From positions 1 through 38,007 of the forward strand of contig CAJXLC010000021.1 in assembly GCA_913055645.1 (NCBI GenBank): a stretch of DNA of 38,007 bases, written 5' to 3'. The notes beneath the pieces were generated by a model, which was given only the letters and a program-made list of their open reading frames with translations, was not told where the DNA came from and ran no database searches. This stretch comes from an uncultured Pseudomonadota bacterium (GTDB lineage: Bacteria > Pseudomonadota > Zetaproteobacteria > Mariprofundales > Mariprofundaceae). The first letter of the stretch is position 1. Each line of letters starts with the position of its first letter. Made by a program: the position numbers and the translations under genes. This document shows positions 26,401 through 26,867 of the stretch, piece after piece.

Positions 26401-26544
26401 CCTTTTGTTGCTCCCATGGCATTGGCATTATCTTGGGGTTTACTCTTCTCCACCTTCATTACCCTATTTTCTATTCCCGCTGCCCTGGGCATAGGCATGG
26501 ATGTCAAACAGCTATTTACACGCAACCCCAAAGCTGAAAAATAA
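23464..26544 (+). CDS. RND-family efflux pump, inner-membrane subunit
   Basis: This 1026-residue proton-driven RND permease is of the hydrophobe/amphiphile (AcrB-like) type. It has the N-terminal membrane segment followed by [30 protein letters not shown], and the two large periplasmic loops. In TM4 the proton-relay pair is Asp397-Asp398 in [13 protein letters not shown], equivalent to the AcrB pair. The C-terminal half repeats the 12-helix pattern and ends with the [21 protein letters not shown] segment. It overlaps the TolC-family gene by ATGA. No membrane-fusion (adaptor) gene lies before or after it, which RND pumps normally need. Its stop is immediately followed by the tandem sRNA-like repeat. 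Confidence 0.92.
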   Translation: [1026 protein letters not shown]

Positions 26545-26559
26545 AACAACCAACATAAA

Positions 26560-26565
26560 TATATT
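26560..26565 (+). promoter_or_regulatory. Candidate -10 box of the first sRNA-like unit
   Basis: TATATT in an A/T-rich block, at the position equivalent to the TATAAT of the second unit. No good -35 hexamer is seen upstream. The sequence around it is conserved between the two units. Confidence 0.4.
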
Positions 26566-26571
26566 TTAATT

Positions 26572-26697
26572 TGAAATTCACAGTCTCATCACATTGAGCC
26601 TGTAGACTTCGTGTTGTCTGGTGTCGCCCTCCCCCCTCCCTCCCTTAGACACCAGACGAAAGATTTAAAAGGCTCCGCATTGCGGGGTCTTTTTTTT
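26572..26697 (+). ncRNA. Candidate small RNA, copy 1, with pyrimidine-loop hairpin
   Basis: A predicted transcript of about 125 bases; the 5' end is estimated from the -10-like box and could be off by several bases. Hairpin 1 (26580-26603) pairs ACAG/CTGT and CTCA/TGAG around a 1x1 mismatch. Hairpin 2 has a perfect 10-bp stem, GTCTGGTGTC (26616-26625) with GACACCAGAC (26648-26657), and a 22-base loop made almost only of C and T, containing CCCTCCCTCCC. Hairpin 3 is the terminator at 26669-26691 with eight T. The loop is complementary to Shine-Dalgarno GGAGG. This layout resembles the CCUCC-loop sRNAs described in Alphaproteobacteria (CcsR/cuckoo type). No open frame with a ribosome site is seen. 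Confidence 0.72.
26669..26697 (+). terminator. Intrinsic terminator of sRNA copy 1
   Basis: A 10-bp stem AAGGCTCCGC (26669-26678) with GCGGGGTCTT (26682-26691), containing two G-T wobble pairs, a 3-base loop and a run of eight T. It also ends the efp-TolC-RND transcript. Confidence 0.9.
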
Positions 26698-26732
26698 ACC
26701 CCAAAATAGAAAAATAAACCAATCAACATAAA

Positions 26733-26738
26733 TATAAT
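26733..26738 (+). promoter_or_regulatory. Candidate -10 box (TATAAT) of the second sRNA-like unit
   Basis: A consensus TATAAT located about 7 bases before the estimated 5' end of the second unit and downstream of the first unit's terminator, so this copy probably has its own promoter. No clear -35 hexamer is seen; the upstream A-rich tract may compensate. Confidence 0.5.
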
Positions 26739-26744
26739 TTAATT

Positions 26745-26867
26745 TGAAATTCACAGTCTCATCACATTGAGCCTGTAGACTTCGTGCTGTCTGGTGTCGC
26801 CCTCCTCCCCTCCCTTAGACATCAGACGACAAATTTAAAAGGCTCCGCATCGCGGAGCCTTTTTTTT
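26745..26867 (+). ncRNA. Candidate small RNA, copy 2, with pyrimidine-loop hairpin
   Basis: Sibling of the preceding unit, about 123 bases. Hairpin 1 (26753-26776) is identical to copy 1. Hairpin 2 pairs GTCTGGTGTC (26789-26798) with GACATCAGAC (26818-26827), one G-T wobble replacing a G-C, around a 19-base C/T-only loop with CCTCCTCCCC. Hairpin 3 is a perfect terminator. Relative to copy 1, sequence changes in the stems keep pairing (wobble versus Watson-Crick), which argues for a functional RNA. The predicted targets are mRNAs with GGAGG-type ribosome sites; this is inference. Confidence 0.74.
26839..26867 (+). terminator. Intrinsic terminator of sRNA copy 2
   Basis: A perfect 10-bp stem AAGGCTCCGC (26839-26848) with GCGGAGCCTT (26852-26861), a 3-base loop and a run of eight T. 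On the minus strand the same stem is followed by TTTT, so it may also help end the hflK-hflC-DUF2065 transcript. Confidence 0.92.

Follow-up and report, generated by a model that had tools for sequence, protein, structure and literature searches.

What are the two closely similar blocks that follow an efflux permease gene in a member of the Mariprofundaceae, and do they code for regulatory RNAs? The window (the whole 38,007-nucleotide stretch of DNA that was analyzed) is one contig of a 1.88-Mb Mariprofundaceae (Zetaproteobacteria) genome, and its self-comparison reveals two head-to-tail copies with 173-bp spacing at positions 26525-26868. The block at 26525-26636 is 93% identical to that at 26698-26809, and the block at 26631-26698 is 87% identical to that at 26801-26868, bearing out the 173-bp duplication described in an earlier, sequence-only reading of this DNA. 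We consider it probable that the two copies are siblings in a Zetaproteobacteria-wide family of co-regulated, Hfq-independent, trans-acting small RNAs (sRNAs) with anti-Shine-Dalgarno (anti-SD) loops, which would be controlled by a TIGR01387-type response regulator and repress their target mRNAs.

Both copies are on the forward strand and fold into a hairpin (hairpin 2) followed by a terminator. The hairpin 2 stem is 10 bp in each (GTCTGGTGTC/GACAYCAGAC), pairing 26616-26625 with 26648-26657 in copy 1 and 26789-26798 with 26818-26827 in copy 2, and it encloses anti-SD loops of 22 nt (26626-26647) and 19 nt (26799-26817). The 10-bp hairpin and the loop lengths of the sequence-only reading therefore stand, but its C/T-only loops do not quite, as the edge bases are G and A. 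Each copy also has its own terminator, as had been claimed, with a hairpin and T-run at 26667-26697 (the end of sRNA 1) and at 26837-26868 (the end of sRNA 2); folding and conserved pairing identify both, and a terminator search also finds the second. The folds are far more stable than those of shuffled sequences (z of -6.1 and -7.5, with 0 of 200 shuffles as good), and the loop bases are ~0.9 or more unpaired in RNA folding.

The pairing is strongly conserved. Among 20 homologues, 98.9% of cells in hairpin 2 and the terminator hold standard pairs, compared with 30 to 52% in slid-alignment controls, and six pairs have changed on both sides. Covarying stem positions are also seen in a wider set (T-A 35, C-G 18, and T-G 7 at one; C-G 30, T-A 24, and T-G 6 at another), a count biased towards pairing because folded stems were used for it. 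The observation that differences between the two copies keep pairing is thus confirmed, and the stem and C/T loop are conserved in relatives with compensatory changes instead of drifting. Hairpin 1, proposed as a further part of the RNA, is predicted in both window copies but is paired in only 57% of cells in the 20 homologues, somewhat above its slid versions and far from a conserved helix, and we reject it as an RNA component. Because an invariant promoter (11-bp direct repeats plus a TAnnnT -10 box) occupies part of the same stretch, hairpin 1 probably lies outside the RNA made from this repeat-type promoter. With that region sitting within the promoter, each RNA is probably ~80 nt, reckoning its start from the promoter, and not the 120 to 130 bases that had been suggested.

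A logo of 64 distinct upstream regions shows the repeats WTNAA, TTMAT, TTMAY, and NTMA at exactly 11-bp steps and a -10 box (CTAnnGTT) at a fixed distance after them, with no -35 element recognizable in these 64 promoters. In copy 1, the repeats ATAAA, TTAAT, TTCAC, and ATCA span 26555-26591, matching the pattern from the logo with 0 mismatches, and the -10 box TAGACT is at 26603-26608, identified by the spacing of TAnnnT from the repeats in homologues; the RNA is expected to start near 26614-26616, judging from this box. The four 11-bp direct repeats of copy 2 are at 26728-26764, likewise agreeing with the logo and matching the pattern, and its TAGACT box is at 26776-26781, again by TAnnnT spacing in homologues. 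Each copy accordingly has its own promoter, as first claimed, and the AT-rich block taken to be promoter-like is indeed part of it, although it is only the upstream half of the four-repeat promoter.

Ten genomes searched with the four-repeat pattern contain 20 exact matches, 19 of them at sRNA genes of the family, so that the box is a near-exclusive marker of these genes and appears to predict anti-SD sRNA genes and little else. At least six box matches (at loci L166, L168, L170, L186, L188, and L191, all left out of logo construction) have other stems, either GTCCGGAG..CTCCGGA or GTCTGGCGC..GCGCCAGA. We also considered other box-controlled genes in the window's genome; the 1-mismatch match falls at the tmRNA promoter and appears to be a chance occurrence.

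Box and hit counts suggest about five or six siblings per Mariprofundus genome. We note that paralogues with the stem GTCCGGAG..CTCCGGA are at L168:1480-1680, L188:1480-1680, L186, L191, L113, L115, and L117, those with the stem GTCTGGCGC..CCTCCCTAGTGTTTYGCG are at L166, L170, L179, L116, and L114, and an AGTGTTTYGCG segment adjoining the loop is conserved in these paralogues. In six Mariprofundus-group genomes, the sRNA is followed 200 to 600 bp downstream by another hairpin and terminator that has a C/T-rich loop and lacks the four-repeat box (L108:1266-1348, L130:1081-1163, and L056:993-1067 on the minus strand; L109:1730-1812, L110:1358-1433, and L120:1538-1613 on the plus strand). Its stem is mostly TAGATCYGGC..GTCGGATCTA, and it may represent a sibling that has decayed or come under separate control.

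The family is widespread within one lineage. An exact pattern of the 5' stem and the loop start, scanned against one genome per species for ~85,000 species, has 24 matches, all in Mariprofundaceae/Zetaproteobacteria, and this is a strict pattern that diverged relatives could escape. The same pattern has no matches in viral contigs, and viral carriage was rejected. A covariance model built on hairpin 2 and the terminator, a search of relatives suggested by the sequence-only reading, matches 69 of the 74 genomes of Mariprofundaceae at E<=0.01, where weak matches can be terminators alone, as well as two genomes from another family of the same order; all of the fetched matches, down to ~38 bits, have the C/T loop, with the same promoter ahead of it. 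Conservation of the stem and loop across the class supports the proposal of a tandem sibling sRNA pair with anti-SD loops outside the Alphaproteobacteria. No Rfam 15 family matches the window at gathering cut-offs (the best below-threshold match scores 26.3 bits against a cut-off of 55), which rejects Rfam membership, and no prior small-RNA work on Zetaproteobacteria was found in the literature searched. The RNAs thus appear to form a previously uncatalogued, Zetaproteobacteria-wide family.

The loops of 75 distinct members are 12 to 29 nt long and 83 to 100% C/T, and 12 members have CCTCCTT, which we take to be like the 3' end of 16S rRNA. A G-quadruplex on the other strand was rejected as the object of selection, since four C3 tracts are found in only 28 of 82 loops. 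Loops that are almost pure C/U, variable in length, and held open by a stable stem could also serve as decoys for a protein with C/U-rich RNA as its ligand, such as Rho or ribosomal protein S1, instead of as mRNA antisense, but the Shine-Dalgarno (SD) complement CCTCC is present in 79 of 82 members, which is more specific than C/U content requires, and comparable sRNAs have been proven to act on SD sites (PMC10746234, PMC4132741, PMC5362039); we regard a decoy as highly improbable. That the copies encode small peptides and do not act as RNA is scarcely credible: a GTG-started open reading frame (ORF) runs through each copy, but loop lengths in homologues differ by non-multiples of three, the base pairing is conserved, and the reading frame is not.

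The RND-family permease gene (23464-26544, forward strand; Pfam ACR_tran, 1.1e-172, and tblastn synteny) lies directly upstream of copy 1, and genes for elongation factor P and a TolC-type protein are also upstream on the same strand; downstream, on the opposite strand, are a 61-aa ORF and two Band-7 (HflC/HflK-type) genes. We note that the elongation factor P gene is tightly linked, with a 4-base overlap, to the TolC-type and RND permease genes at 21369-26544, that this linkage is also seen in the relatives L074, L076, L080, and L089, and that no periplasmic adaptor gene is seen adjoining these genes. By tblastn synteny, a family member adjoins the RND gene in 36 examined genomes of about ten genera. 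In the window, the RND stop codon is only 11 bp before the first promoter box, and no terminator was detected between the gene and the box besides those of the copies themselves. Read-through from the efp-TolC-RND transcript into the copies, with a shared terminator, is therefore plausible, and the hairpins could be mainly 3'-untranslated-region or terminator elements of that mRNA, acting as a terminator/stabilizer or a processed sRNA with an operon-bound function. We consider such an operon-bound role unlikely, since a conserved promoter of its own precedes each member, the RND gene is absent beside several relatives in the genus and most paralogues, which sit elsewhere, and a terminator has no need of a conserved anti-SD loop. 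In other genomes, including four of the same genus, one to three copies of the sRNA are away from the RND gene, with neighbors that, judged by eye, resemble glgC and rRNA methyltransferase genes. Because relatives carry the unit elsewhere, the sRNA unit appears to be mobile and self-contained, and its place beside the efflux gene seems nonetheless to be old. We also note an insertion between two sRNA copies at L007:1657-1825, with near-identical inverted ends (GGGCACCTCGAAAAACC ... GGTTTTTCGAGGTGCCC), which resembles a small non-autonomous transposable element.

Response regulators of the OmpR/PhoB family usually bind tandem repeats that adjoin the -10 region and recur at 11-bp steps, and our survey covered OmpR-type response regulators only. 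The window's genome codes for four of these, and only PhoB and a TIGR01387-type regulator are present in all nine compared genomes, several of which are incomplete. YycF/MtrA-like and CpxR-like regulators were rejected, as they were not found in some sRNA-bearing genomes. PhoB is suggested by the 11-bp repeats and disfavored by the pst promoters of the same genomes, which carry a different box: their repeats are TGTCAY, whereas the sRNA repeats are TTMAY with no G before TCA, and the sRNA promoters lack TGTCAY at 11-bp steps. The TIGR01387-type regulator (282 bits against a cut-off of 279) occurs in 71 of 78 genomes, with every one of the 18 genera of the class represented, at 79 to 100% identity, and is encoded next to a sensor kinase at L198:1069-3227 (genome G000, contig C31). 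It is also more conserved than PhoB in the compared genomes. Its recognition helix (NVIDVYISHLRNKID) resembles that of Mycobacterium tuberculosis PhoP (NVVESYVSYLRRKID), which binds 7-bp repeats with a 4-bp spacer, also as three or four motifs in a row (PMC4832192). Elimination within the OmpR family and this resemblance together make the TIGR01387-type regulator, with its sensor kinase, the best candidate for the regulator of the box. Against this assignment, its CusR/CopR-type relatives bind inverted, not direct, repeats, and no four-repeat box was found upstream of the response-regulator genes, where it might indicate autoregulation.

There is a substantial chance, if a minority one, that the sRNAs are real and their promoter is under some other regulator, either PhoB with an altered site or a protein outside the OmpR family. 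The survey's restriction to OmpR-type regulators and the presence of PhoB, too, in all sampled genomes leave room for it; against it stand the difference between the pst and sRNA repeats, the 11-bp tandem arrangement that points to the OmpR family, and the likeness of the candidate's recognition helix to a protein that binds TCACAGC repeats with 4-bp spacers.

With the TIGR01387-type regulator as the favored candidate, we infer transcription, the identity of the regulator, target pairing, and repression from sequence, as follows. An OmpR/PhoB-type response regulator would bind the four 11-bp-spaced repeats and activate the -35-less promoter, and each gene would give a ~80-nt RNA with one hairpin, a polypyrimidine loop (12 to 29 nt), and then a terminator. 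The loop would carry overlapping CCUCC motifs and would, with no help from Hfq, pair with ribosome sites of the GGAGG type on target mRNAs, thereby repressing their translation. Hfq (PF17209) was detected in none of seven Zetaproteobacteria genomes (G000, G005, G012, G017, G018, G063, and G065), with control genomes positive, although the genomes are partly incomplete and a diverged Hfq could escape. The Hfq expected for an Hfq-dependent sRNA is thus undetected in all seven, and the Hfq coprecipitation proposed earlier would be uninformative here. A long C-rich loop would presumably pair strongly without a chaperone; NfeR1 is described as Hfq independent (PMC10746234), and Hfq is dispensable for LhrC (PMC4132741). 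The RNA structure and its conservation, the shared promoter, the multiple siblings, and the lack of detectable Hfq in seven genomes are computational observations.

Target leads rest on strong-SD pattern matches. GGGAGGRG-N2-9-ATG has 12 sites in the window's genome compared with 3 for the reversed pattern, and among the genes that follow these sites are nuoA, gcvH, one for a CheW-domain protein, two for c-type cytochromes, and one that resembles cstA by eye; another cytochrome c gene is behind a strong SD in a related genome. The strong SD sites ahead of c-type cytochrome, nuoA, and cstA-like genes are at L214, L275, L276, and L277 (genome G000) and L207 (genome G005). Duplex energies of the loop against sites inside the window likewise give only candidate targets. 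Strong SD sites also mark highly expressed genes, so these genes are leads only; they may be sRNA targets or simply highly expressed.

The closest parallels are of design. LhrC1-5 of Listeria monocytogenes are multicopy siblings with CU-rich SD-blocking sites under the two-component system LisRK (PMC4132741), and the OmpR-type box common to all members here may point to two-component control by the candidate regulator. LhrC RNAs, however, are from a different phylum and are 111 to 114 nt with three separate UCCC sites (PMC4132741), whereas the Zetaproteobacteria RNA is expected to be ~80 nt with one long loop, and its promoter of four 11-bp repeats is a further difference; we liken the two by design and claim no sequence relation. 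The cuckoo/alpha-r14 RNA NfeR1 (PMC10746234) and CcsR1-4 (PMC10253847) share CCUCCUCCC-type anti-SD loop motifs, and CcsR also shares tandem copies. In alpha-r14 RNAs, an unpaired CCUCCUCCC 9-mer is found in each of three hairpins (PMC10746234), in contrast to one C/T-loop hairpin plus terminator per RNA here. CcsR RNAs are processed from a DUF1127-gene transcript with an RpoHI/RpoHII promoter (PMC10253847), one promoter serving the cluster and RNase E releasing the RNAs, whereas in the window a repeat-type promoter and a terminator belong to each copy, the upstream gene codes for an RND permease, and no ORF fitting DUF1127 cotranscription (CcsR/CIN1-type) lies between. NmsRA and NmsRB of Neisseria meningitidis are tandem siblings, 70% identical, with anti-SD sequences, and they downregulate mRNAs of the TCA cycle; they belong to another lineage and have three stem-loops and two short anti-SD regions (PMC5362039). 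The Caulobacter alpha-r8 RNAs SisA-D (Rfam RF00519) are siblings sharing a 10-mer anti-SD core but have unrelated promoters (PMC12559287), in contrast to the one common box of the Zetaproteobacteria siblings, and the window scores 19.7 bits against RF00519 (cut-off, 41). The likeness to LhrC, cuckoo/CcsR, and NmsR is best read as one of functional design, with homology not claimed. The defining traits tested for the cuckoo, CcsR, and Rfam families are missing here, and we therefore file these RNAs as a new lineage-specific family within a known functional kind, the anti-SD sibling sRNAs.

Among iron oxidizers of the sea, Zetaproteobacteria are the main group. Their class-wide sRNA family now has a defined structure, one promoter type common to its members, and a candidate regulator, and as some hosts are in culture (Mariprofundus), the whole regulon becomes testable. 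The family offers a natural instance of sibling sRNAs regulated together where Hfq is undetectable. It is also an apparently independent example of anti-SD siblings under response-regulator control, bearing on the recurrence of this design. More speculatively, and with doubt outweighing confidence, a near-invariant two-component system may act through the dedicated four-repeat promoter to drive several polypyrimidine-loop RNAs per genome that mimic the 16S rRNA 3' end and together damp strong-SD mRNAs class-wide, in a class where Hfq was not detected, which would include electron-transport genes (c-type cytochromes and nuoA). If true, this would be a translational brake tied to the iron-oxidizing way of life.
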